A stretch of 64,000 bases of DNA, taken from Botryococcus braunii (lineage: Eukaryota > Chlorophyta > Trebouxiophyceae). The notes below the pieces were generated by a model. The model had not been told where the DNA came from, did no database searches, and was given only the letters and a program-made list of their open reading frames with translations. A program made the position numbers and the translations under genes. Positions 1 through 63,428 of this stretch are shown one piece after another (within the stretch, counting starts at the first letter, position 1; each line of letters opens with the position of its first letter). The stretch covers positions 62,501 through 126,500 of the forward strand of contig KV908382.1 of assembly GCA_002005505.1 (NCBI GenBank). Direction: 5' to 3'.

Positions 1-387
1 ATAATAATGTTCAGACCTCAACAACTGCCCTTGGGGCCCCGTCACTGCGGGATTCTGGTCTAGGCGTACCATAGAGATACCTCGGGCAAGTGTACACCCA
101 GGATGCGGTCTGGTGTCTGGAGGAGACTCGCCGGCTCAAAGTGCAATGTATAGAATTGTGGCAGTGACCTTCTATACGCCGCTGCCTGTGGCTATGGCTT
201 GCTTTGGCAGGCCTCCTGGGAGCTCAGTCACCTTGGAGGGGGAGAATGTAGCGCGCGGCAGGCAGACTCTGCCGGATGCCAAGCGGTACATTAGACTAGG
301 CGTAGCCTCTTCACGCTAGTATATACGGTGTGGCGCTCGGGCTACACTGACACTTTCATCGGTGCAAACAACTCGGATAACTTTACA
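1..387 (+). mobile_element. 3' end of a TRIM-like non-autonomous LTR element
   Basis: This is a diverged relative, in the opposite orientation, of the complete small LTR element at 59795-61243. A purine-rich tract (about 234-246, ending ggagggggagaa) is followed by an LTR at 247-387 that begins TGTAGCGCGC and ends TTTACA, as in the complete copy. Stretches such as gcggtacatt and ggtgcaaac are shared. The internal region (1-246) has no convincing ORF. The element is inserted in a copia RT gene, which resumes at about 388. Its 5' end lies outside the window, so a target duplication cannot be checked. Confidence 0.75.
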
Positions 388-1614: not shown

Positions 1615-2327
1615 TGTTGTGTTATATAAGAATTTTTGTGCCTTTCCCTCAGAAGAGTAATTTTGGCTTTATGATGGAGAACATTGAGCTGGACACAATT
1701 AGCTGGAATGAGTAATTGATGGCAGAACTCAGAGTTCTGCCCAACTACGTAGACAAGTTTTGCTAGATAGAGGTAATGTGGTAACTCAACACGTTTGCTG
1801 AGAAAGCCTTTATGGTGCCGTCTCAAACGGACAAGGCACTTGGTTGGGACTATAAGAGCACTCCGGGTGCTTGTCTTTTGTTGCCAATCAGTCCTTGACT
1901 CATATGTGTTACGGTCTGCTACACACACACAGCAGACGTAACACCGACTAAGCACCCTTCGTGTCCGGCGCCATACAGGTAACTCGGTTTGGACAGGTAT
2001 TACTTATAAGTTTGCGTGACAGCTTAAATTAAGACATATCGTTGTTATTTTCCTCAGAGCTGGACTCATCAGACAAGGTCATGTGAGTAATCAGCTCATG
2101 AGCGGGATTGTTTAGTTTGAACCTTATCAAGTGATAGATGAGAGAGAAAGAGAATGTAATGACATGGTTGGGACTACAAGAGACTCCGGGTGCTTGTCTT
2201 TTGTTGCCAATCAGTCCTTGACTCATATGTATTACGATCTGCTACACACACACACCAGACGTAACACCGACTAAGCGCCCTTCGTGTCCGGCGCCATACA
2301 GGAATACGCCAAGCCCATAACCTCACA
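1615..2327 (+). repeat. 3' LTR, copia family C, two-unit form
   Basis: The LTR starts TGTTGTGTTA directly after a polypurine tract (aaaaggcaaggagaag, 1599-1614) and ends CCTCACA. It contains two copies of a ~138 bp segment (about 1841-1978 and 2163-2301). Each copy has a TATA-like box followed by the conserved end ggcgccatacag. The first copy runs into gtaactc and the second into gaatacgcc. The LTR is 713 bp, against 387 bp for the one-unit copy at 56978-57364. Confidence 0.85.
1979..2301 (+). other. Candidate GT-AG intron inside family C LTR
   Basis: The segment starts GTAAC right after CAG at the end of the first leader unit, and ends ACAG at the end of the second unit, followed by GAATACG. 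Its last ~139 bp repeat the exon just upstream. The one-unit LTR at 56978-57364 lacks this 323 bp segment. Splicing followed by reverse transcription, or recombination between the two units, would both explain that. Confidence 0.5.
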
Positions 2328-4887: not shown

Positions 4888-5126
4888 TGTTATATTGGTG
4901 AGATGAATTTGTGCCTTTCCCTCGGGAGAGTAATAGTGGCCAAATCTGATCAGAATGACAAGCTGGAACAATTAGGAGAATGAGTAATTAATGGCAGAAC
5001 TTAGAAATTCTGCCAAGGTCAATCTAGACTGATTCCACTTAGGTAGAGGGAATGAGGTAATTTGACACGGTTTTGCTAGGAGAATATATGTCGCCGGCTC
5101 GCAAGGCTGAGGCACTTGATTGGGAC

Positions 5127-5132
5127 TATAAA
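5127..5132 (+). promoter_or_regulatory. TATA box, first leader unit
   Basis: TATAAA lies in gggactataaaggcactcc at the start of the first leader unit. The same box recurs in the second unit (5456-5461), so the LTR may carry two tandem promoters. Families B and C keep the context as ctatagtgg and ctataagag. Confidence 0.6.
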
Positions 5133-5258
5133 GGCACTCCAGGTGCTTATCTCTTGACAGTTGCCTATCAAGTGCACAGACACAGTCGGCCCTGCTTGTT
5201 TATCGACACACAACAAGAGTGCCGCCGAGCTAAACACCCTTCGTGCCGGGTCATACAG

Positions 5259-5587
5259 GTAACCTGATGTTGCAGCACCAGATGCACATGAACAACTGGT
5301 TAGGAGGAGGTTTAGATAATGTTATTAGAATAGTGCTAATGTTTTGACTCATTGAACAACGGTAATGCAGACTATCGGTAGATATGTAGAGTGATTAGTT
5401 TGAATTACTGAGTGATGAGAGAAAGCAATAAGCATTGCAATGACTTGATTGGGACTATAAAGGCACTCCGGGTGCTTATCTCTTGACAGTTGCCTATCAA
5501 GTGCACATACACAGTCGGCCCTGCTTGTTTATCGACACCCAACAAGAGTGCCGCAGAGCTAAACACCCTTCGTGCCGGGTCATACAG
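5259..5587 (+). other. Candidate GT-AG intron inside family A LTR
   Basis: CAG|GTAACC closes the first leader unit and CATACAG|GAATCG closes the second. The final 145 bp of the putative intron repeat the upstream exon almost exactly. The same layout is present in families B, C and D. Confidence 0.5.
5456..5461 (+). promoter_or_regulatory. TATA box, second leader unit
   Basis: This is the second copy of the TATAAA box, 329 bp downstream of the first. A transcript started here would have the same leader as a spliced transcript started at the first box. Confidence 0.5.
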
Positions 5588-5612
5588 GAATCGCCAAGCA
5601 CATAAGTTTACA

Positions 5613-5627
5613 GGTTATGGGCCCACC
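5613..5627 (+). other. Primer-binding site, initiator tRNA-Met anticodon arm
   Basis: Immediately after the LTR comes GGTTATGGGCCCACC. This complements the anticodon stem-loop of plant-type initiator tRNA-Met rather than the tRNA 3' end. Priming by an internal tRNA fragment is known for Drosophila copia. Family B carries GGTTATGGGCCCAC at the same position (63429). Confidence 0.7.
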
Positions 5628-18232: not shown

Positions 18233-18975
18233 TGTTATATTGGTGAGACGAATTTGTGCCTTTCCCTCAGGAGAGTAATAGTGGCCAAATCTGATCAGAA
18301 TGACAAGATGGAAAAATTAGGAGAATGAGTAATTAATGGCAGAACTTAGAAGTTCTGCCAAGGTCAATCTAGACTGATTCCACTTAGGTAGAGGGAATGA
18401 GGTAATTTGACACGGTTTTGCTAGGAGAATATATGTCGCCGGCTCGCAAGGCTGAGGCGCTTGATTGGGACTATAAAGGCACTCCGGGAGCTTATCTCTT
18501 GACAGTTGCCTATCACTTGACAGTTGCCTACCAAGTGCACATACACAGTCGGCCATGCTTGTTTATCGACACACAACAAGAGTGTCGCCGAGCTAAACAC
18601 CCTTCGTGCCGGGTCATACAGGTAACGTGATGTTGCAGCACCAGATGCACACGAACAATTGGTTAGGAAGAGGTCTAGATAATGTTATTAGAATAGTGCT
18701 AATGTTTTGACTCATCGAACAGCGGTAATGCAGACTATCGGTAGATATGTAGAGGTTTTAGTTTGAATTACTGAGTGATGAGAGAAAGCAATAAGCATTG
18801 TAATGACTTGATTGGGACTATAAAGGCACTCCGTGTGTTTATCTCTTGACAGTTGCCTATCAAGTGCACATACACAGTCGGCCCTGCTTGTTTATCGACA
18901 CACAACAAGAGTGCCGCCGAGCTAAACACCCTTCGTGCCGGGTCATACAGGAATCGCCAAGCACATAAGTTTACA
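18233..18975 (+). repeat. 3' LTR, copia family A
   Basis: This is the partner of 4888-5612, with both leader units and the CAG|GTAACG junction (at about 18620). The first unit carries an extra short duplication. The target duplication cttat follows at 18976-18980. Confidence 0.9.
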
Positions 18976-24311: not shown

Positions 24312-25214
24312 TTTAGCGTAATGGCATCATCAAAACAGAATTTGTAGAATTTAGAATTGATATAAAAATCCCTGTGACTCACACTCTTTGAGTAAGTGAA
24401 CTGTGCCCAAGTGAAAGCTTGTAGAAGTGGACGAAACACGACCAAGCAAACGGGACAGGAGCTTGATAAGGGCACTCAAGACTCTGTTACAATAACTACT
24501 AATCTAACGATGTTGCATTACCTGTGACTCACACTCTTTGAGTAAGTGAACTGTGCCCAAGTGAAAGCTTGTAGAAGTGGACGAAACACGACCAAGCAAA
24601 CGGGACAGGAGCTTGATAAGGGCACTCAAGACTGACTGATCCCTTGGACACTTCCTATATATACTAACTAACGAGACTACTCATTTATTAGCCTCCTGAC
24701 AGGTTTGCAACTCCAGATCTTAAGAGAGTACGGGCACGATCAAGTTTGCATGCCATCAGTACTATGCACTGGAATTTCAATGTACCTCATGATTCGACAT
24801 GTTCGTCGATGAATAGTACGAATCTCGGTCGATGCTAATATCGAATCTAAGTGACTCGAAACTTTAACTCACCACCGAGATGAACCTCGAATCAACCACC
24901 AAGGACCGCAGGACTTAAAGTCTCACGATCGATGAGGTCCGGTATAAGTATACCTTACTAGAAAACAACCAGAAAACAGCCCGAAATTGTACCAGGGCCT
25001 CTATAAATCACTATGAGTGTCAATTTACCTTAAAGTACCATACAGTACAAACCCACCCAAGTGAACTAAAATTGTACCTTAATGTTCATGAGCATTTTTA
25101 ATATTATAAACCCTTGAAATGAATTGATGTGGCTCACAAACATGCTAATATGAAATGACCCAACATGTTTAAGAAATACCTAAGGTATACTTGTTAGTGT
25201 CCATTTTTCTAACA
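24312..25214 (-). repeat. 3' LTR, copia family D
   Basis: On the minus strand the LTR begins TGTTAGAAAAATGG and ends CGCTAAA. It contains a TATATATA box (24656-24663) and a ~112 bp segment present twice (24371-24483 and 24523-24634). The partner LTR (53797-54700) is nearly identical, with a small insertion near 54440. Confidence 0.9.
24372..24521 (-). other. Candidate GT-AG intron inside family D LTR
   Basis: On the minus strand the first repeat unit ends CACAG|GTAATGC and the second ends CACAG|GGATTTT. The enclosed 150 bp start with GT and end with AG. Only one TATA box is present, upstream of the first unit, which fits an intron better than duplicated promoters. Confidence 0.45.
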
Positions 25215-31107: not shown

Positions 31108-32517
31108 TGTGGGTTCTGCAACCCAAAGCCGATGGTGTTACCATTCACAGATGATGGATGTCGAATGACATGATCACAATCACCGATTTAATGAGCATGC
31201 GGAAAGTTCTCAACACAGTTACGAACGCATGCCGAACATAAGGATGCGCAGGTGAGACACATAACAAGCTTGCTTGATAAGCAAGCTTGCTTGGAGAATA
31301 CTCCATTGAATGTCTGCTACAAAGGGAATGCATCGAGACGTGCAAATAAAGATATGAACTAAACGTGCACCACTTGACTACTCTTACCTGCAACCCAAAG
31401 CCGATGGTGTTACCATTCACAGATGATGGATGTCGAATGACATGATCACAATCACCTGTACCAGTACTACTTGTCAATGCTTTGGGTTCAACAAATGATT
31501 AAAGACTAAGTGATACACGTTTCTCACTAGTCGGGGCTTACCGATTTAATGAGCATGCGGAAAGTTCTCAACACAGTTACGAACGCATGCCGAACATAAG
31601 GATGCGCAGGTGAGACACATAACAAGCTTGCTTGATAAGCAAGCTTGCTTGGAGAATACTCCATTGAATGTCTGACCTGCTGCCCCGATCACGAAGCCAT
31701 AAACCAGACTTGTTGACCAATCTAATATACGCGTTAACGTCCACTTTTGGATAAAGGTTCGATTCTAGGCCAATCATCCAAGTCAATCGATTGAGCTCAG
31801 TCTCCCTTCACAATAGTAATGTGATCAAAGGAAGACTAATTGCCACCGACAGAGACCACTCTTATCAAGAGATTGCTTGATCAGATTTCTTAAGTACCAA
31901 CTCCCATGAAAGCAATTGCAATCTCCATCTACTAGCCGCATTTAACTAACAACAACAAAGGACATAAAGCTAAGGATCTGATCAGCATGAACCTGTACAA
32001 ATAACAAGTACCACGTGATCTGTAGTTCGACTGGAGTCATAGGAATAAACAGCTTGCACCTAAGCAACTGGTCCCCTGAGACCTAATCTCATCATAGGTA
32101 CAGGAAACATAGTCAATGCCTATTGCATTCGACAAGGCAATACACAAGTCATTACATCCAAGTATGACTTCAACTCAATAACAGTCAATTGCTCACTGTA
32201 TGCGCGTGCAAATGCATATGCATGCTTAATACGATTGTAAAAACAGTATACCGAGAACATGAAGTATCAACCTATGAAGTATCATCGAGTTTATGATTAA
32301 CAACCATATCCAATAGTGTCCCATAGCACCTTATTGACATCTTCTTTGGAATAGTTATGGTTGTGTGATTACACAACACAATTAACGTATTTTAAGATTA
32401 AGAGTTGTAGTAAGTGTGCCAACACAATATGAACCAGTTCACCCATGAAATCGCAATGATAATCCATATCATGATCATTATCTGTAGGTGAATCATGGTT
32501 CATATCCAACAATCTTC
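31108..32517. repeat. Large direct repeat, copy 1
   Basis: This block recurs at 36395-38112. Internally it repeats a ~70 bp phrase (caacccaaagccgatggtg...) at 31113 and 31389, and a longer block with a hairpin (caagcttgctt/aagcaagcttg, 31265-31289, again near 31623). No coding potential seen. Confidence 0.85.
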
Positions 32518-32880
32518 CCCTTTGGCACATTTGCTCAACTTGCAAATTAGGCACGTTCCTCGAAACTATGAAGCATATACAATGAACATTAATCCCTTAC
32601 TCGATTAAGTACATGTCCGTAAATCTCATAATGAAATTTACGTGCAAGATCCATATATGTGTTTGGGCAATCACTGACCTGATATCTGGATACAATTAAG
32701 AATTATACCTCCGGACGTATACTTCTTCTGAGCAATCACTGCCTAGATACGCAAGTGCTCAAGCACTCAATCGTAGGACAATAACTGCCTAGATTAAACT
32801 CCACACAAGTACAACGTCAGCTGAGCTGATAAGCAGATGTAAACGCAAACAAGCTCAGATATAGCACATATAGGCGAAGA
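32518..32880. other. Unannotated spacer
   Basis: AT-rich sequence; I see no gene or repeat apart from short atacgcaagtgctc-like phrases. Confidence 0.4.
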
Positions 32881-33690
32881 GACAAGCGTAAAGAAGACGC
32901 CCAGAGACACGCGCCGAGAAGACGCGCCCAGAGAGGACGGGCAGAGAACAGGCGCAGGGACAAGCCCAGACACACGCGCCGAGAAGACGCGCCCAGAGAG
33001 GACGGGCAGAGAAGACGCGCAGAGACAAGCCCAGACACACGCGCCGAGTAGACGCGCCCAGAGAGGACGGGCAGAGAAGACAAGCAGAGACAAGCCCAGA
33101 CACACGCGCCGAGAAGACGCGCCCAGAGAGGACGGGCAGAGAAGATGCGCAGAGAGAAGCCCAGAAACACGCGCCAAGAAGACGCGCCCAGAGAGGACGG
33201 GCAGAGAAGACGCGCAGAGAGAAGCCCAGACAGAAGCGCCAAGAAGACGCGCCCAGTGAGGACGGGCATAGAAGACGCGCAGAGACAAGCCCAGACACAC
33301 GCGCCGTGAAGACGCGCCCAGAGAGGACGGGCAGAGAAGACGCGCAGAGAGAAGCCCAGACACACGCGCCGAGAAGACGCGCCCAGAGAGGACGGGCATA
33401 GAAGACGCGCAGAGACAAGCCCAGACACACGCGCCGTGAAGACGCGCCCAGAGAGGACGGGCAGAGAAGACGCGCAGAGAGAAGCCCAGACACACGCGCC
33501 GAGAAGACGCGCCCAGAGAGGACGGGCATAGAAGACGCGCAGAGACAAGCCCAGACACACGCGCCGTGAAGACGCGCCCAGAGAGGACGGGCAGAGAAGA
33601 TGCGATGAGATATGCTCAGAGACACGTGCCGAGAAGACGCGCCGAGAAGACGGGCAGAGAAGACGCTCAGAGACATAAGCATAGAAATGC
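32881..33690. repeat. 65-bp minisatellite
   Basis: About 12 tandem units of exactly 65 bp; the gcgcc(g/a)(a/t)g anchor recurs at 32911, 32976, 33041 and onward to 33626. From about 33301 units alternate between two variants, giving a 130 bp higher-order period. No stop codons occur in any minus-strand frame. Confidence 0.95.
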
Positions 33691-36394
33691 GCCTCAGCTG
33701 AGTAGATAAACATAGGTATGCAGCAATAGGACTACACCCCAGCTTGAGGTGACAAATTGGTGCCGGATCACTATGATCCAATATATTAATATTCTTAAGA
33801 TAATGCAACACCACTATGGTGCTCATAGGAGACTAATCAATGATAACCATAGGCCAAGTTTTAGTGCTCACGCACCTCAAGGAAATAACTTCCCCTGCTT
33901 CATTGCTTCCCCTCAAACAAGTAACACCTTAGGACTTTTCACGCTTTGTCTAGTGCTACCACTAACTCTTCCGCTGAGTAATCTATATATACCACTAACT
34001 CTTCCGCTGAGTAGTAGTACAAACAAACGACTTGAGGGATCTCCGCTTATTATCAGCAAAGCGGATACCCAAGAGTACACGATCACCGTGCACAAGACCC
34101 ACGACACCGTGCACAAGCGGGATGGGATACTCTCCATTTGCTCACACACAACGAAATGACATGCTAAAAGCATTTATTCTAATGTCACTTTAATTCACAA
34201 GTCTTTGATAGACATGAGTGCGGAACATCGTTCCATGATCAACTCTTGTAATATCAAACCGTATCTCAACAACACCAAGCTCCAGTACCATAAACAACAA
34301 GCATATCATGCACCAAACTGCAATGCACTCTAATTTAAAAGGCTCTACTATGCATGAACTCATGTAACCAGTAGATGACTTAACAACGATAACATACACA
34401 TATAGGATCCGTATAGGACACATATAGGTCCGGACTACTTACGCACTCTACAGAGCGAGGTGTATTAACTTGCTTCCCCTTAAACCTTGGGAAAATACAA
34501 CACACAAAGCAATGCCTAAATGCTTAAAGGTCAACGCTCAAGTGATCCTAAACAAAATACCAGCCAATAACCATGGATAACATAAGATTCCTCTGTAAAC
34601 CGCTTGAAGATTCGAGTCATGGATCTATCGGAGTATCGGATAGTACCTCGATCGACAAAATTCATTAGTCGACACGGAGTCTCAATCCTAAAAGCGAGTG
34701 TCTACCACCCGATCTCACTCGACTCGAACCGTAGAACCAGACATCGACGCGCAGTCTCTCATTACCGTGTGAAAACCAGACCTGTCACGTTTTTATGAGG
34801 CTGCAGAGCCTTCCTGAGCTTCCCTGAACCAGGGAAGACCACTCAAGACACACAGCATACTCCAGACCTATTTTAAAATTATATCTAATGCGATGAAATG
34901 CCTAAAGATCACTGAACATGGGTATTTAAGGGTAGACGAGCAAAAGGCGCAAGAGACGCAACGATGTGGGCAAACACTGAACCATCCAGAGCTCATTCCA
35001 GTTTCAACCGAAACTTAAATAACTTGGCCTAATATTGCATACTAATAAGAAGTACATTAGAGAGAATTCCCAGCCCTTCTCTATGGGCTGCATTTCCTCA
35101 ACTACCCTTTATAAACGTTCATTATCCTTGGCAGATGTTTGTCTGACTCCAGGGAGTACACAGCCACTGAACATCAGTGACCCTCTCCTTCATCATATCT
35201 CTGCTCATCAGAAAGATTATTTAATGTCAAAGAAATATATATGTCAGGTAGCATTGAAGGAATCAGCCAATCATCAATCAGGACCCTCTTCATGCAATCT
35301 GCATTTCACAAATCAAACACTAAGCTCCTACCAAAGAGCTAATATTATCAGTTTTTTTTTGTCATCATTACCAGAAACCAAAGTACATGACTGGAGGAAC
35401 CAAATATGGATTTCCTCCCTATGTTCCATAGTTTTCCCCAAGTTTTAGGAACCCTCCTCAACTCATGTAAGGTAAAACCAGGCCCTCTTGGAGATCCACT
35501 ATCATGTCCAACAGCAATTATTAACAACCTTAGCCAAACACTATTACTGATTGATGATAATCCCTTGGTATTTGTACCAACATTGGCTTAAACTCACACT
35601 CATGCAAGAACCAACATATATATATTGAAGTGTAAACTTCTACAAGAGCCACAAGTGTGAAGTGAAGAATGTCAACCCAAGGTCTTCGGGTAATTTAGGT
35701 TCCAAGATCTTGGTCTAGACCTGCCTCAAGCACAAGGTCAAAAGACAAGGCCATCTTTGTGTGTACATTCTCATTGAGCATTGTCATTTACTATTGCAAG
35801 TAGCTCATGCTCTTGTATATCACACAACACATTCTCCCAGTCTGAAGACACCTTGAATAGACCTTCACTTGAGCTAGAATTAATTTACACATTAAGGGAA
35901 AGAGCATATCTGCCTCACTTGGCCTTCATCAAATGTGGATAACATATTCCCATCATTGCAAAGACTACCTAAGTCAGAACCGCTAATCAAATTGCTCAAT
36001 TATAGCAAATCTTAAACTAATTGCCCAAAGGTAAGACAACCATTGTCACTTATCGGGAAGGATGCGGAAACGGATACGTGGTAAGCGGCTTCAAAGATGC
36101 AATTACAGGATCTCAAATATCAGCCACTACCTTTTCGATGCCATTATGACTGTAAATAATGGTTGAAATTTCATTCATGCTTCGTATGCAAGAATGAGGA
36201 ACACGGCGTGGCTGCCGATGGCGAAGCGATGGAGAGAGGCACTCTGCCTCATCATCCGCCATAATTTTGCGAGATGGGAATACTTTGACCTTTAGTAGCT
36301 TGCCAAATCGACGAGTTAAAAGGAGGCCTGAACCTCCGATGTTGATGACGACGTGCTCCAGCCGAAGACCGCCCAAGGCGGTGGGCCCATAACC
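33691..36394. other. Unannotated CACTA interior
   Basis: About 2.7 kb of AT-rich sequence. A phrase ccactaactcttccgctgagta is repeated near 33958 and 33993. Open frames are short (the longest 136-137 codons at 33749 and 35035) and carry no recognised domain. I see no gene. Confidence 0.4.
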
Positions 36395-38112
36395 ATTGTG
36401 GGTTCTGCAACCCAAAGCCGATGGTGTTACCATTCACAGATGATGGATGTCGAATGACATGATCACAATCACCGATTTAATGAGCATGCGGAAAGTTCTC
36501 AACACAGTTACGAACGCATGCCGAACATAAGGATGCGCAGGTGAGACACATAACAAGCTTGCTTGATAAGCAAGCTTGCTTGGAGAATACTCCATTGAAT
36601 GTCTGCTACAAAGGGAATGCATCGAGACGTGCAAATAAAGATATGAACTAAACGTGCACCACTTGACTACTCTTACCTGCAACCAAAGCCGATGGTGTTA
36701 CCATCACAGATGATGGATGTCGAATGACATGATCACAATCACTGTACAGTACTACTTGTCAATGCTTGGGTAACAAATGATAAAGACTAATGATACACGT
36801 TCTCACTAGTCGGGCTTACCGATTAATGAGCATGCGGAAAGTTCTCAACACAGTTACGAACGCATGCCGAACATAAGGATGCGCAGGTGAGACACATAAC
36901 AAGCTTGCTTGATAAGCAAGCTTGCTTGGAGAATACTCCATTGAATGTCTGACCTGCTGCCCCGATCACGAAGCCATAAACCAGACTTGTTGACCAATCT
37001 AATATACGCGTTAACGTCCACTTTTGGATAAAGGTTCGATTCTAGGCCAATCATCCAAGTCAATCGATTGAGCTCAGTCTCCTTCACAATATAATGTGAT
37101 CAAAGGAAGACTAATTGCACGACAGAGACCACTTTATCAGAATTGTTGATCAGATTTTTAATACCAACTCCATGAAGCAATTGCATCTCANNNNNNNNNN
37201 NNNNNNNNNNNNNNNNNNNNNNNNNNNNNNNNNNNNNNNNNNNNNNNNNNNNNNNNNNNNNNNNNNNNNNNNNNNNNNNNNNNNNNNNNNNNNNNNNNNN
37301 NNNNNNNNNNNNNNNNNNNNNNNNNNNNNNNNNNNNNNNNNNNNNNNNNNNNNNNNNNNNNNNNNNNNNNNNNNNNNNNNNNNNNNNNNNNNNNNNNNNN
37401 NNNNNNNNNNNNNNNNNNNNNNNNNNNNNNNNNNNNNNNNNNNNNNNNNNNNNNNNNNNNNNNNNNNNNNNNNNNNNNNNNNNNNNNNNNNNNNNNNNNN
37501 NNNNNNNNNNNNNNNNNNNNNNNNNNNNNNNNNNNNNNNNNNNNNNNNNNNNNNNNNNNNNNNACATAAAGCTAGATCTGATCAGCATGAACCTGTACAA
37601 ATAACAAGTACCACGTGATCTGTAGTTCGACTGGAGTCATAGGAATAAACAGCTTGCACCTAAGCAACTGGTCCCCTGAGACCTAATCTCATCATAGGTA
37701 CAGGAAACATAGTCAATGCCTATTGCATTCGACAAGGCAATACACAAGTCATTACATCCAAGTATGACTTCAACTCAATAACAGTCAATTGCTCACTGTA
37801 TGCGCGTGCAAATGCATATGCATGCTTAATACGATTGTAAAAACAGTATACCGAGAACATGAAGTATCAACCTATGAAGTATCATCGAGTTTATGATTAA
37901 CAACCATATCCAATAGTGTCCCATAGCACCTTATTGACATCTTCTTTGGAATAGTTATGGTTGTGTGATTACACAACACAATTAACGTATTTTAAGATTA
38001 AGAGTTGTAGTAAGTGTGCCAACACAATATGAACCAGTTCACCCATGAAATCGCAATGATAATCCATATCATGATCATTATCTGTAGGTGAATCATGGTT
38101 CATATCCAACAA
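36395..38112. repeat. Large direct repeat, copy 2, with assembly gap
   Basis: This is the copy of 31108-32517. Around 36683-36830 and 37080-37190 it loses single bases at many short homopolymers relative to copy 1, next to a run of N. That looks like uncorrected sequence rather than mutation. Confidence 0.8.
37191..37563. other. Assembly gap (373 N)
   Basis: A run of unknown bases. Copy 1 of the repeat has only about 40 bp at the corresponding place, so the gap length is probably an estimate. Confidence 0.98.
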
Positions 38113-43730: not shown

Positions 43731-46700
43731 ATGGCAGACGTACAAACTCCTGTTCGTTTAGAATTTTTCTATGGAAAGCCCACAGAAGACCCTTTTCAGT
43801 GGCTTGAGTCCTTTGAGTTGTTTATTGAGATCAACCATATAGTGGGCGATCGAGTTTTACGATTTGTCAAACACGCAATGCGTGAAGAAGCATATACCTG
43901 GTTTCGTGCAAATCAAGATGACTTTAGTGACTGGGATGAATGCAAGGAGGCTTTTCTCGAAAGATTTGGCCTCGATGAGGACACCCTTATGTTGAAATTA
44001 GACACATGTGCACAACAATCTAATGAGACTGTTAGGAGTTATGCTGACAGATTCAGGAAAATAGTGGGTTATTTGCAGAACTCTCTGCCTCCCAGAATGG
44101 TAACACAACTATTTGTTAAAGGTCTAGTACCACATCTACGTGAGAGGGTTCAGATGACCTACCCCGGCAAAGGAGCGTTAGCCGACATTATAAAATTGGC
44201 AGCTGATTATGAACAAACATTTGGACACGCGCCTTTAGGGGGCATGTATTCAAGCCAGAACATACAAGTGCCGGCGCGCGAGAGGATGGATCAATGGAAT
44301 CGCCGCGCCGATGACAATATGGATCAGCGTGCAGCACGCCCGCCGCCGCAGCAAAATCAGAGAGAGAACAATAGAGACAACAGAAATTGGCAGCGTCAGC
44401 GAGACTTCCCGGAGCGACGCAACCAGCAGCCAGCAGCACCGCCTAGGCAGATTGCACCAAACAACCCACCAAGGGAGGCACCTGCGCCACCCCCAATTAA
44501 TGACATTGACACCCTCACAAGGGAGATGGAGAGACTACGAATTCAAATCGCAGAACTACAGCGACAGCCCACAGCCAACTTCACCAAGTTTGTGGAGCAT
44601 GAACAGCAACCGGAGCAACCGCCCCCGGAGCACGCCACAATAATGCATGATGGATTTACGGATCCTTTTCCCGTGTATCCTATATATGCCACTAAGAGGC
44701 CAGCAGAAAGTCCACCTGAAGCAAACCAACCGCTGCTTCGGCGCCGCCCCAACAATCTGGAGGACACCACAGTTGACCCAAGAAACATACCAAGGCCTGC
44801 CGCCCCTCGGCCTGCACCAGCTCAGAGACAACCAGTAGAACCTACAACACCAGCAGCACCCCCTCCTGCACCTGCAAGGGAGCCAGCAGCGCGTCCACAC
44901 GTGGACCTTGGAGGATTGCCTCCCCTACCTAATGCCGCACGTCCCGCCGCCTACAGGAGACCAGTGGCCAGCGCACCAGCTACGGCAGAACCCATTCAGC
45001 AGATTAAAGGGCTTCCCATGAAGCTCACCGTACAAACCTACCTGAACCACATCAGCGAGGAGGAGTTCAACAAGTCAATCATGGAGCTAAAGGAGTCCCG
45101 TGAGGAATTTCTGCGTAATAGACAGCGAGACCCGCCGCCAGCGAGAGCTACCAATGCGGAAGTTATCTACGTTTCTGGAGGGACCACCTCAACTAGCAGG
45201 ACTGACAACGAGGAGTCACCTTCAACGCAAATGCCACAATCAAACCTGCAAAGGAATCCGGTGAACACCACTGTTGCCACCGTACCTATAATCATTAATG
45301 ACTTAGTATTTGAGGATGGCATCATCGATACTGGTGCCACAAACACAATGATTTCACATTCAGCCGCACGACAGTTAAATTTAATTGATCAGATTGAGCC
45401 TTCACGTCTTAGATACTCGTGTGCAGATGGGAAAATGTCCACTCCTTGGGGCATTATTCGCAAGCTCCCTGTAGGAGTTGAGGGCTTAGTAATACCAATT
45501 GACGTATTTGTTAGTGGAGCGACTTCTTATGATGTACTTCTTGGAACAGATTGGCTTACTCAGGCTCACGCCGAGATAAGCTTCGCCAAGCAAGAGATGT
45601 CTTTTCGAATAGAACCACAAATTATGGGGAGAGTTCCCATCACTGTCATGCCTGCCAGTAAAAGCAGCAACCGATATTGCGTCGCGAGAGTCCCAGGAAT
45701 AGATTTCGATGGTCCCGCGGGTCATCCCGCCGACCCAGGGGTACCTGGGGTACCCGGCCTACCAGACGAAATTATAAACATTGAGAACGATCTGTCAGAA
45801 GAATCCCAGGAAGAAACAGACCTTTATTCCGGGAGTGAGGGAGAAATTCCTAGTACTGAACTCTCCGAGGAGGAGGAAGAGTATTCGGAGGAGCATGAGG
45901 CTTTCTCTTCCGAAAGTGAGATTGAGATTTACAATGCGACAGTAAGCAACGAGGGTCGAGAGCTTGAGTTAGCAGCCCATCCTTACATGACTGAAGATTG
46001 GATGTTGGAAACTAATGTTTTTAGAGAAATTGAAACACAGTGGGGTCCTTTTGACCTCGACGCATGTTGTGATCTCCAAGGTCACAACTCTCAGTTACCT
46101 TTGTATTGGTCCGCTGAGGACGATTGTTTACAGCAGAGCTGGACCCATTTGAGTATATATTGCAACCCACCTTTTTCGATAATTGACAGAGTTGTGAATC
46201 ACTGCCTCGCGTGTTTCACCAGTAGTCCCTTCACCATTAGTGCAGTACTTGTGCTACCATGGTGGCCTTCTGCCCCTTGGTTTCCTACAGTAATGGAGCA
46301 ATTTGAGATCATCAAACAATACCCTCCTGGTGTGCAGCTTTTCACGGCCCCGGGAGAGGACCCTGCAGGTCCGCGACGTCGTTATGGCCCTACCAGATGG
46401 CCTGTCATAATTGTTCGTGTCCCCACCTCCCTTAGGAAGGAAGATCCTGGTATGCAGAAGTTGAGAGAGATAACAAATACTGAAAAGATGAAACAGGACC
46501 CCGATCCCATGTTAAAAATCACCACCGGGATGCGAAAATTGGGTCCTAAGAGAGAAGAAGAGATTGAGAGATTATTACAGGAGTACAGGGACGTATTTAC
46601 CCCAGGTATAGTACAGGAAAGAACCACCTTAATGCACCACCGCATAGACACTGGGGATGCGGTCCCCATCAAAACACGCCCTTATCGCTTGTCCCGTTCG

Positions 46701-48191
46701 GAGGATCAGGTGATCGAGGAAGAAGTTCACAAAATGCTAGAGGCTGGAGTGATAGTGCCTTCCAGCTCTCCTTGGTCTAGTTCGCCTGTGTTAGTAGGCA
46801 AGCCGGATGGCTCTGTCCGGTTTTGTATTGACTACCGTCCATTAAATGCAGTTACCCGACGTGACAACTACCCCATGCCTAGGATAGACGAGACCCTAGA
46901 TTCCTTAGGTCAGGGGGTGGAATATTTAAGTAAGATTGATTGCAAGTCAGCCTTTTGGTTGATACCAGTAGCCCCAGAGGACCGTGCAAAGACCGCTTTT
47001 ACCACCAAAGAAGGTTTATTCGAGTTTGTATCAATGCCGTTCGGCTTGCGTAACGCCCCGGCTACGCTTCAGAGATTTGTTAACACTCTATTGCAAGACT
47101 TAATAGGCAAGTGTTGTGTCATTTATTTAGATGATTGTTTGGTATACAGCCGCACATTTGAGGACCACCTCACTCATTTGAAGTTAGTGCTTGAACGCTT
47201 CCGTGCGGTGGGCTTTAGAGCCAACCCAGCCAAGTGTGAGTTATGTTGCAGTGAAGTGTTGTACTTAGGATACATTATCACGCCCCAAGGCATAAAGCCC
47301 AACCCTTCCAAGGTTGAGGCAGTTCTCAACGCAGCACCGCCAACGAACGTGACCGAAGTCAGGTCCTTTTTGGGACTTGCAAACTACTACAGGAGATTTC
47401 TGCACAACATGGCCGCCATATCTGCCCCATTGACGCGGCTTACGAGAAAGGGGATTGTTTTCAACTGGACCACTGACTGCCAAGCCGCTTTTGAAGCCAT
47501 CAAGGCTATGCTAGTGGATGCGCCGCTTTTACGATACCCCGACTTCAGCAAGAAATTCACCCTATACACTGATTGGCAGCCCGGAGCCGCCGCCGCCATT
47601 CTGGGCCAGGAGTTCGAGGATGGTGACCATGTGATCGCATACGCCAGCAAAACTTTACAAGGAGCAGAGCTCAGCTACTCTCCAACGGATGGGGAGCTGC
47701 TTGCCATAGTGTGGGCCGTGAAGCTATTCCGCCCCTACCTCTATGGAGTTCAATTTACTATAGTAACAGACCACAAAGCTTTGAAGTGGTTACTCACTTC
47801 ACGCAATTTGTCCGGCAAACTAGCACGATACGCCATCGAACTACAAGAATATGACTTTGACATCCAGCACCGCTCGGGGACCTTGCATGGGAATGTGGAC
47901 TGCCTTTCCCGTCTACGCCTAATGCCGCCCCCCGGAGAAGACTACAGTGAAGAGCCGCCGCCGCCGCCGTTAGAAGAAGAAAATAATGAGGAGAACCACA
48001 TGCACTGCTGCTACACCATGACCTTTGACAAGGAAAATATGCCGCCTGCTGGAGACACAATGGACCTGGACCAACCTTACCCGCCACCCGCGCACGATAC
48101 CACCCAGCGCGGAGAGATAGTAACTTCACCAACCCTACGACGACCCCGGAGGATGATGCACCCCCTTCCAGGGACTGCCTTCCGGAGATGA
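43731..48191 (+). CDS. Gypsy G polyprotein: gag, protease, adenine-MTase-like, RT, RNase H
   Basis: An intact 1486-residue frame starting MADVQTPVRL. Residues ~15-165 are a gypsy gag domain (DPFQWLESFELF...FLERFGL...VRSYADRFRKIV); no CCHC knuckle is seen. A long Pro/Gln/Arg-rich region follows. Protease is near 535-640 (IIDTGATNTMIS, YDVLLGTDWL), then an acidic linker. Residues ~753-900 resemble phage N6-adenine methyltransferases: FDLDACCD, a DD-x5-W phrase in SAEDDCLQQSW, the catalytic-type NPPF at 812-815, and VLVLPWWPSAPWF. RT follows (FCIDYRPLNAVTRRDNYPMPRID, YLDD in CVIYLDDCLVYS), then RNase H (LYTDWQPGAAAAI, SYSPTDGELLAI, VTDHKALKW) and DCLSRL. The stop overlaps the next ORF by ATGA. 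Confidence 0.92.
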   Translation: MADVQTPVRLEFFYGKPTEDPFQWLESFELFIEINHIVGDRVLRFVKHAMREEAYTWFRANQDDFSDWDECKEAFLERFGLDEDTLMLKLDTCAQQSNETVRSYADRFRKIVGYLQNSLPPRMVTQLFVKGLVPHLRERVQMTYPGKGALADIIKLAADYEQTFGHAPLGGMYSSQNIQVPARERMDQWNRRADDNMDQRAARPPPQQNQRENNRDNRNWQRQRDFPERRNQQPAAPPRQIAPNNPPREAPAPPPINDIDTLTREMERLRIQIAELQRQPTANFTKFVEHEQQPEQPPPEHATIMHDGFTDPFPVYPIYATKRPAESPPEANQPLLRRRPNNLEDTTVDPRNIPRPAAPRPAPAQRQPVEPTTPAAPPPAPAREPAARPHVDLGGLPPLPNAARPAAYRRPVASAPATAEPIQQIKGLPMKLTVQTYLNHISEEEFNKSIMELKESREEFLRNRQRDPPPARATNAEVIYVSGGTTSTSRTDNEESPSTQMPQSNLQRNPVNTTVATVPIIINDLVFEDGIIDTGATNTMISHSAARQLNLIDQIEPSRLRYSCADGKMSTPWGIIRKLPVGVEGLVIPIDVFVSGATSYDVLLGTDWLTQAHAEISFAKQEMSFRIEPQIMGRVPITVMPASKSSNRYCVARVPGIDFDGPAGHPADPGVPGVPGLPDEIINIENDLSEESQEETDLYSGSEGEIPSTELSEEEEEYSEEHEAFSSESEIEIYNATVSNEGRELELAAHPYMTEDWMLETNVFREIETQWGPFDLDACCDLQGHNSQLPLYWSAEDDCLQQSWTHLSIYCNPPFSIIDRVVNHCLACFTSSPFTISAVLVLPWWPSAPWFPTVMEQFEIIKQYPPGVQLFTAPGEDPAGPRRRYGPTRWPVIIVRVPTSLRKEDPGMQKLREITNTEKMKQDPDPMLKITTGMRKLGPKREEEIERLLQEYRDVFTPGIVQERTTLMHHRIDTGDAVPIKTRPYRLSRSEDQVIEEEVHKMLEAGVIVPSSSPWSSSPVLVGKPDGSVRFCIDYRPLNAVTRRDNYPMPRIDETLDSLGQGVEYLSKIDCKSAFWLIPVAPEDRAKTAFTTKEGLFEFVSMPFGLRNAPATLQRFVNTLLQDLIGKCCVIYLDDCLVYSRTFEDHLTHLKLVLERFRAVGFRANPAKCELCCSEVLYLGYIITPQGIKPNPSKVEAVLNAAPPTNVTEVRSFLGLANYYRRFLHNMAAISAPLTRLTRKGIVFNWTTDCQAAFEAIKAMLVDAPLLRYPDFSKKFTLYTDWQPGAAAAILGQEFEDGDHVIAYASKTLQGAELSYSPTDGELLAIVWAVKLFRPYLYGVQFTIVTDHKALKWLLTSRNLSGKLARYAIELQEYDFDIQHRSGTLHGNVDCLSRLRLMPPPGEDYSEEPPPPPLEEENNEENHMHCCYTMTFDKENMPPAGDTMDLDQPYPPPAHDTTQRGEIVTSPTLRRPRRMMHPLPGTAFRR

Positions 48192-53317: not shown

Positions 53318-53793
53318 TGTCAGTCCCACATGGATCCCATACAAATCCCACGTGCTTCCTGGGATCATTGTTGGATGTCCCAGATCATTCCCATATCAAT
53401 CCCACATCATTCCCGTATCAATCCCACATCGATCCCACTCAGTCTGTCCCAGATCGATCCCATAAAAGTCCCACATCGATCCCACAAATTCTATCCCACA
53501 TCATTCCCAGATCGATCCCACATCGATCCCACCAAAATCCCACATCGATGTGGGATCGATGTGGGATCGGAAATTCCGGTCCCAGAATCGTACACTTTGG
53601 TCACACAATCCCACATCGATCCCAAATTCAATCCCACATTGATCCCACATCGATCCCAAATTTTCAGAGTTCAATCCCACATCGATCCCACATCTATCCC
53701 ACACTGTGGGATCGTTTTGGGATCGATGTGGGACTTTTAGCAGCTGGTGGGATCAATGTGGGATCAATGTGGGATAATTTCGTTCTCCCAGTG
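53318..53793. repeat. CACTA right terminus and subterminal repeats
   Basis: More than 20 CATCGATCCCAC, ATCCCACAT or inverted GTGGGATC units fill this stretch and end in the 36 bp TIR. It is much longer than the left cluster. Confidence 0.8.
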
Positions 53794-53796
53794 GTA

Positions 53797-54700
53797 ATGG
53801 CATCATCAAAACAGAATTTGTAGAATTTAGAATTGATATAAAAATCCCTGTGACTCACACTCTTTGAGTAAGTGAACTGTGCCCAAGTGAAAGCTTGTAG
53901 AAGTGGACGAAACACGACCAAGCAAACGGGACAGGAGCTTGATAAGGGCACTCAAGACTCTGTTACAATAACTACTAATCTAACGATGTTGCATTACCTG
54001 TGACTCACACTCTTTGAGTAAGTGAACTGTGCCCAAGTGAAAGCTTGTAGAAGTGGACGAAACACGACCAAGCAAACGGGACAGGAGCTTGATAAGGGCA
54101 CTCAAGACTGACTGATCCCTTGGACACTTCCTATATATACTAACTAAGGAGACTACTCATTTATTAGCCTCCTGACAGGTTTGCAACTCCAGATCTTAAG
54201 AGAGTACGGGCACGATCAAGTTTGCAGGCCATCAGTACTATGCACTGGAATTTCAATGTACCTCATGATTCGACATGTTCGTCGATGAATTGTACGAATC
54301 TCGGTCGATGCTAATATCGAATCTAAGTGACTCGAAACTTTAACTCACCACCGAGATGAACCTCGAATCAACCACCAAGGACCGCAGGACTTAAAATCTC
54401 ACGATCGATGAGGTCCGGTATAAGTATACCTTAATAGAAAACAATAGAAAACAACCAGAAAACAGCCCGAAATTGTACCAGGGCCTCTATAAATCACTAT
54501 GAGTGTCAATTTACCTTAAAGTACCATACAGTACAAACCCACCCAAGTGAACTAAAATTGTACCTTAATGTTCACGAGCATTTTTAAGATTATAAACCCT
54601 TGAAATGAATTGATGTGGCTCACAAACATGCTAATATGAAATGACCCAACATGTTAAAGAAATACCTAAGGTATACATGTTAGTGTCCATTTTTCTAACA
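53797..54700 (-). repeat. 5' LTR, copia family D (main part)
   Basis: Nearly identical to 24312-25214. Its last nine bases lie at 31013-31021 on the far side of the CACTA-like element. The target duplication ctaca follows at 54701. Confidence 0.9.
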
Positions 54701-56017: not shown

Positions 56018-56809
56018 CACCCAAGGACAAATATTTTGTGCGGTTTTTTGGAGGTCCACCGTTTTGACGAATTGATTGGCAAAATGTGGGAATTTGTAGA
56101 GGGATAGTGGCCCCTTTGGAATCAGTACTCTATGAGCTATTTTTGAGATATGAGTTTGTGCCTGCCCCGGACTTGTGTACTTGACAAAATGAGCCGTGCG
56201 TGCCGGCGTGGCAGGTTGACTGATTGATTCGAAAAGGGGGCCCACTTTTCGACAGCACCACACACAAGCGCAGTAAGTACGTTCCAAGAAAGACACCCTT
56301 CATGTTGTGTGAATAGGGCTACTGATTGCGTGTTCTTAGTTTAAAGCGCACTCCTTCTTCCCTCGCATCTGTACACGATTTTCACAAGTTGACACCGTTT
56401 TCACTAGAAAAGCTCGCGTTTTGCAGCATATTGCTTGGGCTTTGTTGTTGATAGATTTGAGAAGCAGTTTTGTGTCAGGGGTGCGTGGCAAGGGAAGGAC
56501 CTGAGCTCCTTTGAGTGCCTCTGTGGGGGCCGGGGAAAAGCGGTTTGTCCTTTGGCACGGGAGGCTCGGACTAGGTGGTGTTTTGTTGGACTAGGGCTCC
56601 TACAGTTGAGAGCTGCAAATCAGGGGGCCATCTTTAATTAGGCATATAAGAAAGCACACGGCTGCAAACAGAAATACAAGCTCCCCGTGAGGTAGCCCAA
56701 CGAACAGCCTTGACAATACATTTAACTTGGGTGAATCCCATGCCTGGCACATGCGCTATAGCACTTTCCCTCGAAGGCAGTGTTGCACAAAATTTTTGCC
56801 CTTGGGTGA
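56018..56809. repeat. Terminal repeat E2
   Basis: Near-identical direct copy of E1 (22081-22872). Its right end is the outer end of the Tc1-like element and abuts the TA target duplication. Confidence 0.8.
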
Positions 56810-56977: not shown

Positions 56978-57364
56978 TGTGAGGTTATGGGCTTGGCGTA
57001 TTCGTGTATGGCGCCGGACACGAAGGGCGCTTAGTCGGTGTTACGTCTGCTGTGTGTGTGTAGCAGACCGTAACACATATGAGTCAAGGACTGATTGGCA
57101 ACAAAAGGCAAGCACCCGGAGTGCTCTTATAGTCCCAACCAACCTTGTCCGTTTGAGACGGCACCATAAAGGCTTTCTCAGCAAACGTGTTAAGTTACCA
57201 CATTACCTCTATCTAGCAAAGCTTGTCTACGTAGTTGGGCAGAACTCTGAGTTCTGCCATCAATTACTCATTCCAACTAATTGTGTCCAGCTCAATGTTC
57301 TCCATCATAAAGCCAAAATTACTCTTCTGAGGGAAAGGAACAAGAAATCTTATACAACACAACA
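56978..57364 (-). repeat. Family C LTR, one-unit form
   Basis: 387 bp, bounded by TGTGAGGTTATG and ACACAACA on the plus strand. It has only one leader unit, and the intron-like segment (323 bp in 1615-2327) is absent with the flanks joined at CATACA(c)|GAATACG. Confidence 0.85.
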
Positions 57365-62737: not shown

Positions 62738-63428
62738 TGTTGTGTTAATTAATTTTATGCCTTTCCCTCAGAGGAGTAATAATGGCAAGTCTCCGTATGA
62801 AGACAATACCAATTAGGAAAGAGAGGCAGAACCCTGAGTTCTGCCAGGCAATACATGCATTTGAACGAAGACTATCATAACGCAAGTTACAGACACGTTT
62901 GTAGAAAGGAGGCATATGGGGCAAGCACGGATAGGGAAGGCACTTGGTTGGAACTATAGTGGCACTCCGGGTGTCTATCAATCAGTTGCTAACCAGTCCT
63001 TGACTTGTATATGTCCATGCCTACTTAACAACGCACAAGTAGGAGGACATCGTCTAACACCCTCCGTGCCGCCACCATGCAGGTGACTTAATCCTTATTG
63101 TATTCCTGGATTTAGCACTCAGATGAACATTGTTAGAACATGTTAGACATATAGAGTTGAGTTTAGCTCATCGGACAAAGTAATGAACACGACCTGGGTG
63201 AGAGCAGGTTAGGCGTGTTTGAACTGCGTCACCTTGTTAGGAGAGATGAGAGATATTGTAACACTTGGTTGGAACTATAGTGGCACTCCGGGTGTCTATC
63301 AATCAGTTGCTAACCAGTCCTTGACTTGTATATGTCCATGCCTACTTAACAACGCACAAGTAGGAGGACATCGTCTAACACCCTCCGTGCCGCCACCATG
63401 CAGGATACGCCAAGCCCAGAATATTTCA
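62738..63428 (+). repeat. 5' LTR, copia family B
   Basis: Starts TGTTGTGTTAATT and ends ATTTCA. It contains two 142 bp leader units (62941-63082 and 63262-63403), virtually identical to each other, each with ggaactatagtggcactccgg. Confidence 0.85.
63083..63403 (+). other. Candidate GT-AG intron inside family B LTR
   Basis: CATGCAG|GTGAC ends the first unit and CATGCAG|GATAC ends the second. The enclosed segment is 321 bp and its last 142 bp copy the upstream exon. Confidence 0.5.

Follow-up and report, generated by a model that had tools for sequence, protein, structure and literature searches.

Copia LTRs of Botryococcus braunii seem to carry an intron that may be renewed through spliced RNA

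Copia LTRs in the genome of Botryococcus braunii seem, judging from their sequence, to carry an intron inside the LTR. The DNA under study is a 64,000-nucleotide stretch of contig KV908382.1 (positions 62,501 to 126,500 of the forward strand, assembly GCA_002005505.1), referred to here as the window, which was analysed together with loci fetched from the rest of the assembly. In 97 LTR records, U3 is followed by a leader unit (unit 1) that abuts a GT, and the sequence then continues through TGTAA into a second copy of the leader (unit 2) that closes with AG ahead of a short tail; the putative intron would extend from the GT to the AG, with unit 2 as its last part. We consider it highly likely that these Ty1/copia LTRs hold a spliceosomal intron renewed by reverse transcription through the cycle set out below, and probable that splicing forms part of LTR regeneration, the 5' poly(A) signal being removed, the 3' intron kept and unit 2 rewritten by spliced strong-stop cDNA. 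The anatomy of the LTR, the exon-joined copies of its leader, the joint evolution of the two units and their sharp edges are features of the DNA itself; the two families with several exons in unit 1, H and F, are the decisive ones.

LTRs with two leader units in the window and across the assembly

The LTRs of the window are listed in Table 1. An earlier note on this DNA had described a duplicated unit with splice-like ends in families A, B, C and D, and its coordinates match ours to the base; the junctions that it named (A 5258/5588, C 1978/2302, B 63082/63404 and, on the minus strand, D 24522/24371) are reproduced in the DNA, and its GT...AG spans for the four families are exactly those of the table. 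Its view that an intron-like segment lies within the LTR, such that splicing would yield a leader identical to unit 2 followed by the LTR tail, likewise holds. Family H, the D-type LTR at about 53.8-54.7 kb, the TATA-like box and TGTAA are additions to that description. Units 1 and 2 are 97% identical in the 5' LTR of family A, 100% in B, 95% in C and 100% in D, while those of the A 3' LTR are 85% identical (18 gap positions, 6 mismatches); the TGCAA at 5436 in A is probably a decayed TGTAA.

Table 1. LTRs, units, putative introns and primer-binding sites in the window (positions count from its first letter; a slash marks a splice or unit boundary)
Feature	Positions	Strand	Details
Family A 5' LTR	4888..5612	+	TG...CA; primer-binding site adjoins
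A 5' LTR unit 1	5114..5258	+	inferred start to ACAG/GTAAC donor; TATATG ~29 nt upstream
A 5' LTR intron	5259..5587	+	329 nt, GT...AG; TGCAA at 5436
A 5' LTR unit 2	5443..5587	+	4/145 differences from unit 1; ends ACAG/GAATC
A primer-binding site	5613..5626	+	GGTTATGGGCCCAC
Family A 3' LTR	18233..18975	+	unit 1 18460-18621; unit 2 18807-18950
A 3' LTR intron	18622-18950	+	TGTAA at 18799
Family B LTR	62738..63428	+	unit 1 62941-63082; unit 2 63262-63403
B LTR intron	63083-63403	+	321 nt; TGTAA at 63257; primer site from 63429
Family C LTR	1615..2327	+	unit 1 1838-1978; unit 2 2162-2301
C LTR intron	1979-2301	+	323 nt; TGTAA at 2155
Degenerate family C LTR	56982..57364	-	single unit fused to tail (CATACAC/GAATACG); edges approximate
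Family D 3' LTR	24312..25214	-	TATATATAGG box; unit 1 24633-24522; unit 2 24483-24372
D 3' LTR intron	24521-24372	-	150 nt; TGTAA at 24491
Second D-type LTR	53788..54690	-	outer edges approximate; unit 1 54109-53998; unit 2 53959-53848
Second D-type LTR intron	53997-53848	-	
Family H 3' LTR	31108..31925	-	far U3 edge not fixed; exon 1 31673-31542; exon 2 31455-31388
H 3' LTR introns	intron 1 31541-31456; intron 2 31387-31116	-	
H 3' LTR unit 2	31315-31116	-	equals exon 1 + exon 2, 200/200 nt
Family H 5' LTR	36397..37189	-	U3 beside N gap; exon 1 36950-36820; exon 2 36741-36677
H 5' LTR introns	intron 1 36819-36742; intron 2 36676-36405	-	
H 5' LTR unit 2	36604-36405	-	against joined exons: 4 single-base gaps, no substitution
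H primer-binding site	36381..36394	-	GGTTATGGGCCCAC

By their domains the A and D elements of the window are Ty1/copia. A domain scan of the window ORFs found RVT_2 (PF07727) in the A ORF (4.6e-62) and the D ORF (1.1e-68), and Retrotran_gag_2 with gag_pre-integrs in a second D ORF; family A also has the two direct LTRs that begin with TG and end with CA and the primer-binding site beside the 5' LTR that belong to this class. We take GGTTATGGGCCCAC to be the complement of the initiator-tRNA anticodon stem-loop. Relatives of the D ORF were sought in viral contigs and none was confirmed. Elsewhere in the assembly, family B LTR pairs lie 6449 apart and enclose RVT_2 matches with 1805-aa open frames, for example on C10, and all 40 scored B LTRs (of 880 candidates) are 100% identical to the window copy. 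As these copies are alike and have open frames, the LTR plan belongs to recently moved elements. Further RVT_2 matches, at C1:1122040, C10:281355 and other places, lie in open frames reaching 3452 aa; together with a lengthy run of equal-scoring matches that have 1805-aa frames, they represent recently active copia copies.

Self-comparison of the window and the fetched loci for repeats of at least 90 nt gave 104 repeat pairs, 93 of which had the donor pattern; four were added by eye (L060, L072, L073, L095) and seven were excluded, namely L074, a family C relative whose donor was unrecognised; the repeat at 56809, which belongs to family C and is nested; and five pairs of other types (L039:688, L097, L107:630, 32899, 33001). 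In L060 the repeat finder overran the splice site and the donor was taken from a separate reading. Four of the 97 records retained are second sightings (L001, L002 and both in L043), leaving 93 distinct LTRs in 29 families, defined by unit similarity with 90% links, and in 9 groups with unrelated units, defined by the lack of a blastn link at 1e-4. Loci L001-L008 and L069-L080 had been selected by LTR similarity, those of E, F and the L112 group were reached from RVT_2 matches, and L122-L125 enter none of these counts. The donor is GT in 96 of the 97 donor-filtered records; among their acceptors, 90 are AG, 5 are CG (all from F and H, where the measurement refers to exon 1) and 2 are AT (L039, L069). 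The earlier note's rule that the second copy ends CAG/G(A or G) and is not followed by GT held for nearly all of these records (the next two bases being GA in 49 and GG in 39) and failed for GT in 8 and AT in 1. The family formed by L040, L051, L058, L059 and L062 has a longer intron of 482 nt and a unit 2 ending CAG/GTGACG, with GT after the acceptor too.

As the 97-record set is donor-filtered, samples drawn free of that filter carry more weight. The primer-binding site AGGTTATGGGCCCAC has 1796 matches in the 176-Mb assembly (control 0), and the first 30 of these places were turned into loci with no donor filter. This revealed a two-unit LTR in 29 of 30 loci and a GT donor in 29 of 29, with unit 2 ending 19-28 nt upstream of the primer-site match, in a sample in which L042 and L043 overlap as neighbours and which draws repeatedly on a few families belonging to 3 of the 9 groups. 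L042 and L043 (C1:608512-612949) have LTRs of the same family in opposite orientation, their primer sites being separated by about 1.4 kb, and may represent a palindromic insertion. A second unfiltered sample comprised 40 regions (L081-L120) beside 40 of 150 listed RVT_2 matches, mostly diverse high-scoring ones; 31 had a two-unit LTR, although in two of these (L093, L114) the LTR is opposite to the reverse transcriptase match and may belong to a neighbour. All 31 have a GT donor at the first copy (CAT/GT in L095, CG/GT in three), so that the earlier claim of a first copy ending at a GT donor extends beyond the window in both samples. The nine remaining regions consist of an intron-less LTR (L098), a decayed two-unit LTR missed by the repeat finder (L099), five with only partial matches to known elements (L085, L104, L108, L111, L115), one rearranged (L097) and one without an LTR (L118).

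The two-unit design may be limited to copia, as none was flagged in the repeat pairs that flank gypsy-type regions of the window (41464-42812/49777-51118 and 7766-8017/14059-14308), where internal unit repeats of at least 90 nt were looked for. The protease and reverse transcriptase domains of a gypsy-type polyprotein ORF at 43731-48191 (+) are separated by a Dam-like DNA adenine methyltransferase domain (PF05869, 6.9e-13).

Unit edges and the signals beside them

Edges were compared in 29 family representatives, each being the copy of its family with the most similar units. Although only 0.6% of positions carry AGGT, AG/GT falls exactly at the unit end in 26 of 29 representatives and in 7 of the 9 unrelated groups (binomial tail 2e-11, an optimistic figure since the records are donor-filtered); the other two groups are F and H, in which the last exon likewise ends AG/GT. 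The full unit 1 end is (C or T)AG/GT in 26 of 29, the exceptions being F, H and L073. The donor at the unit end is thus beyond chance. To the right of the splice site the two units agree in 28 of 29 representatives at the first base (a shared G), in 4 at the second and in 18 at the third, and then fall to background, while at the left edge they agree in 29 of 29 at the first base and the upstream flanks are at background (0 of 29 at -1 by construction).

The left edge of unit 1 looks like an RNA start. The AT fraction upstream of it is 0.76 at -30 to -26 and 0.31-0.33 at -24 to -14, and unit 1 mostly starts at an A after C (-1/+1 is CA in 22 of 29). The AT-rich box about 30 nt upstream reads TATAAATAGG in D, TATTTAAAGG in the L112 group, GGATAAAGG in E and TATATG in A; no clear upstream box was seen in family F or the L040 group. 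Upstream of unit 2 the DNA is AT-rich throughout with no peak at -30, and TGTAA, known as the poly(A) motif of green algae, starts 6-8 nt before unit 2, within the intron, in 26 of 29 representatives, compared to 0 of 29 within 40 nt before unit 1, from which the start of unit 2 looks like an RNA 3' end and not a second start. In chlorophytes except Pyramimonas, UGUAA peaks about 17 nt before the cleavage site, according to the part of that study used here (PMC1868727), which would place the RNA 3' end about 10 nt inside unit 2. An RNA start at unit 2, which the earlier note had entertained, is therefore not favoured. A related reading makes unit 2 the start of RNA as in an ordinary LTR, with unit 1 and the DNA downstream of it acting as a spare promoter or enhancer; such tandem promoters would yield an identical leader without splicing, and CTATA- or CTACA-like stretches do lie inside the unit in A, B and C, but given the signals just described, together with fused exons in F and H and joint unit evolution that it leaves unexplained, we regard it as highly improbable.

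Among the remaining signals, the last AG of unit 2 is the acceptor position, and the branch-point motif CTRAY, present in 9 of 29 representatives where shuffled sequences give 6.0 (sd 2.1), shows no clear enrichment. When poly(A)-tailed retrocopies that end in unit 2 were sought, 14 overlapping matches turned up at two places, neither of them confirmed, compared with 7 control matches. Comparison of similar copies in the 11 families with at least three copies revealed that the base just before unit 2 is a hot spot of variation. With the edge set at the rightmost unit start it is polymorphic in 8 of the 11 (0.62 expected, P 1.4e-9), and with the edge set at the commonest start in 6 of the 11 (P 4e-6); the base before unit 1 is polymorphic in 1 of 11. 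Variable or extra bases at this place would be the expected trace of shifted RNA starts or of untemplated bases at the cDNA 3' end.

Exon-joined second units, joint evolution and intron-less LTRs

In families H and F, unit 1 is itself split. Intron 1 of the H 3' LTR is a GT-AG intron of 86 nt, intron 2 contains TTTGTAG, and unit 2 of the family ends TTGCAG/AACCCACA. Family F, found outside the window on C500, C154 and C187, has three exons, with introns of 105 and 109 nt before the last intron; unit 2 equals exons 1, 2 and 3 joined on C500 (L102 and L121; 289/289 nt), and on C154 (L106) and C187 (L109), where the comparison covered exons 1 and 2 (212 nt), it shows 1 and 3 differences, respectively. 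The GT-AG introns of 105 and 109 nt in F and 86 nt in H are missing from unit 2 to the base. Duplication of DNA does not by itself remove the inner introns of unit 1, whereas copying of spliced RNA does, and the latter is the simplest explanation of these sequences. This goes against the earlier note's proposal of an intron built by tandem duplication. A DNA-level tandem duplication of an AGGT-containing segment, with occasional gene conversion and incidental splicing, would account for AGGT at the unit end and for the high likeness of the two units of one LTR. Gene conversion should, however, spread or remove the introns by which the F and H units differ so exactly, and in unrelated groups the left edge tracks a TATA-spaced start and the right edge the donor, making this origin very unlikely. 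The extra introns could also be later insertions of intron-like elements into the first of two older duplicates, unit 2 being the original; a split unit 1 beside an intact unit 2 would result here as well, but the exons and unit 2 are identical in the best copies and the shared edges and joint evolution of the other groups would go unexplained, so we hold this to be extremely unlikely. On these grounds we reject all three readings: duplication in tandem, a promoter for unit 2, and introns inserted later.

Two local features accompany these LTRs. Clusters of single-base deletions in L099 and at 36397-37189 of the window, the latter beside an N gap, suggest local assembly errors, and a tandem array with a period of about 390 bases lies between the two family H LTRs at 32794-33826 (-), with long ORFs overlapping in three frames.

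Joint evolution of the units was assessed in 16 families of the largest group, each represented by the copy with the most similar units and with L076 left out. Units 1 and 2 of one LTR have a mean identity of 97.4% (lowest 89.4%), whereas between families the units are 70%, the spacers 53.5% and U3 56% identical. The closest relative of unit 1 is its own unit 2 in 15 of 16 families, the reverse is true in 14 of 16, and the units pair as sisters in 14 of 16. As likeness within LTRs exceeds that between families, the units evolve together and the spacer does not.

How strictly unit 2 would be rewritten varies between elements. Any two of the four family A units differ at 4-5 of 144-145 sites, and the remainder of the LTR pair differs at 16/435, as if all four had been identical at insertion. 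In element C74, however, the LTR pair has 0/761 differences and the units differ at 8/152, and in element C2 the figures are 6/910 and 6/112. As both elements are young with unequal units, rewriting is not strict in every cycle, and a claim of strict rewriting, which fits family A, is weakened by its failure here. In the last cycle of C74 and C2, unit 2 was evidently not copied from the element's own unit 1, and the renewal model would have to invoke either strand transfer from one co-packaged RNA to another or the use of unspliced RNA. In C2 the first unit has its nearest matches in the D copies of the window (1-2 mismatches, 1 gap), whereas L091 and L081/L084 come nearest to the second (2-6 mismatches, up to 3 gaps), affinities that would fit strand transfer between two RNAs; no exact donor unit for C2 or C74 was found among the units compared. 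The two D LTRs of the window have 15/669 differences outside the units and 0/112 in every unit comparison, which is unexpected under a simple clock if they are one LTR pair, and they may be different insertions.

These young elements with unequal units favour a variant in which the RNA is mostly unspliced and the element is an ordinary long-R one (R being unit 1, the intron and about 10 nt), with occasional splicing rewriting unit 2; unspliced RNA could regenerate the LTR as well. Such an element would have to bypass the poly(A) signal of its own 5' LTR, and near-identity of the units is common, with 49 of the 93 donor-flagged repeat pairs at 100% and 63 at a unit identity of at least 99%. We consider this variant unlikely.

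LTRs that lack the intron also exist. The thirtieth primer-site locus, L046, has U3, one unit and a tail, its U3 differing from that of a two-unit relative at 2/198 sites, and the intron-less L098 has the junction CAG/GAATCC. In family E, where 40 of 78 candidates were scored, 6 of the 40 are intron-less in a ranking that favours such copies because the query was itself intron-less; in the other 34 the match halts at the donor, and 33 have a second unit downstream and one only its first 33 nt. Two intron-less family E LTRs on C401 lie 6489 bases apart and intron-bearing pairs on C62 lie 6637 and 6641 apart, the shorter spacing being what a single element would show if the 149-nt intron were missing from each of its LTRs. 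The degenerate family C LTR of the window is another possible intron-less product. Intron-less copies could alternatively come from DNA recombination between units.

A proposed replication cycle and its relation to known systems

From these sequences we infer the RNA start, splicing, the cleavage site, the strand-transfer route and the benefit to the element. Transcription would begin with the opening base of unit 1. The 3' LTR requires a poly(A) signal that would end the RNA too early if used in the 5' LTR; splicing there would remove the TGTAA-bearing intron and bring unit 1 next to the short tail and the primer-binding site, and with the poly(A) signal gone the RNA would escape premature polyadenylation. 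In the 3' LTR the RNA would be cleaved about 10 nt inside unit 2, and because this lies ahead of the acceptor AG the intron would be retained. Minus-strand strong-stop cDNA made from the spliced 5' end (unit 1 plus tail) would then transfer to the RNA 3' end, where unit 2 begins, and be extended through the intron, unit 1 and U3, so that unit 2 is rewritten and the intron regenerated. Strong-stop DNA landing on unit 1 instead would give an intron-less LTR, a type that exists. The exact intron-less copies in H and F stand in for evidence that the putative intron would be removed from RNA. The plan may have originated in one event that joined strong-stop DNA of a spliced RNA at an RNA 3' end, placing the leader behind the poly(A) signal, after which it would maintain itself.

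Retrotransposition is classically proven by an intron that disappears when an element passes through RNA. The LTR intron would survive a cycle that normally erases introns since the two RNA ends are processed differently, and the design would be a simple solution to the problem of 5' LTR polyadenylation that predicts RNA start and splice sites from DNA alone. If true, it would add another explanation of how two identical LTRs can serve as a start at one end and a stop at the other, and a case of intron persistence through reverse transcription common to nine LTR groups with unrelated units in one genome. Fused exons beside split exons in one LTR form a record that could be searched for in any genome.

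Ty1/copia LTR retrotransposons primed by a half-tRNA include Drosophila copia and yeast Ty5, and the textbook LTR has a simple U3-R-U5 form without an intron. The B. braunii elements resemble Ty1/copia in the RVT_2, copia-type gag and gag_pre-integrase domains of the window ORFs and in a primer site directly after the LTR, presumably complementary to the initiator-tRNA anticodon stem-loop. They depart from the simple form in that unit 1, intron and unit 2 follow one another in 29 of 30 primer-site loci. In foamy viruses, the splice acceptors lie outside the LTR. Our search of the open-licence literature found no precedent, in the text available, for an intron kept inside an LTR this way.

According to the portion of a 2025 review used here (PMC12786077), plant LTR retrotransposons generally lack introns, except Ogre and EVADE, in which splicing yields subgenomic RNAs, and that portion mentions no intron between a leader and its spliced copy inside an LTR, as seen here. 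Ogre and EVADE share with the B. braunii elements the possession of introns, but here the intron lies within the LTR and is seemingly renewed via spliced RNA. Marked Ty elements to which an intron has been added drop it when they transpose, as described in the same portion (PMC12786077); both systems would combine splicing with subsequent reverse transcription, but the new Ty copy is intron-less, whereas here the 3' LTR would restore the intron. In foamy viruses the major splice donor lies in R, upstream of the poly(A) signal, and U1 binding to it suppresses 5' LTR polyadenylation independently of splicing (PMC3694450, in the part drawn on here). The duplicated leader distinguishes the B. braunii LTRs, none being described for foamy viruses in that part of the source (PMC3694450), while the order of start site, donor and poly(A) signal inside the LTR is alike in both, TGTAA lying downstream of the donor within the LTR in 26 of 29 representatives.
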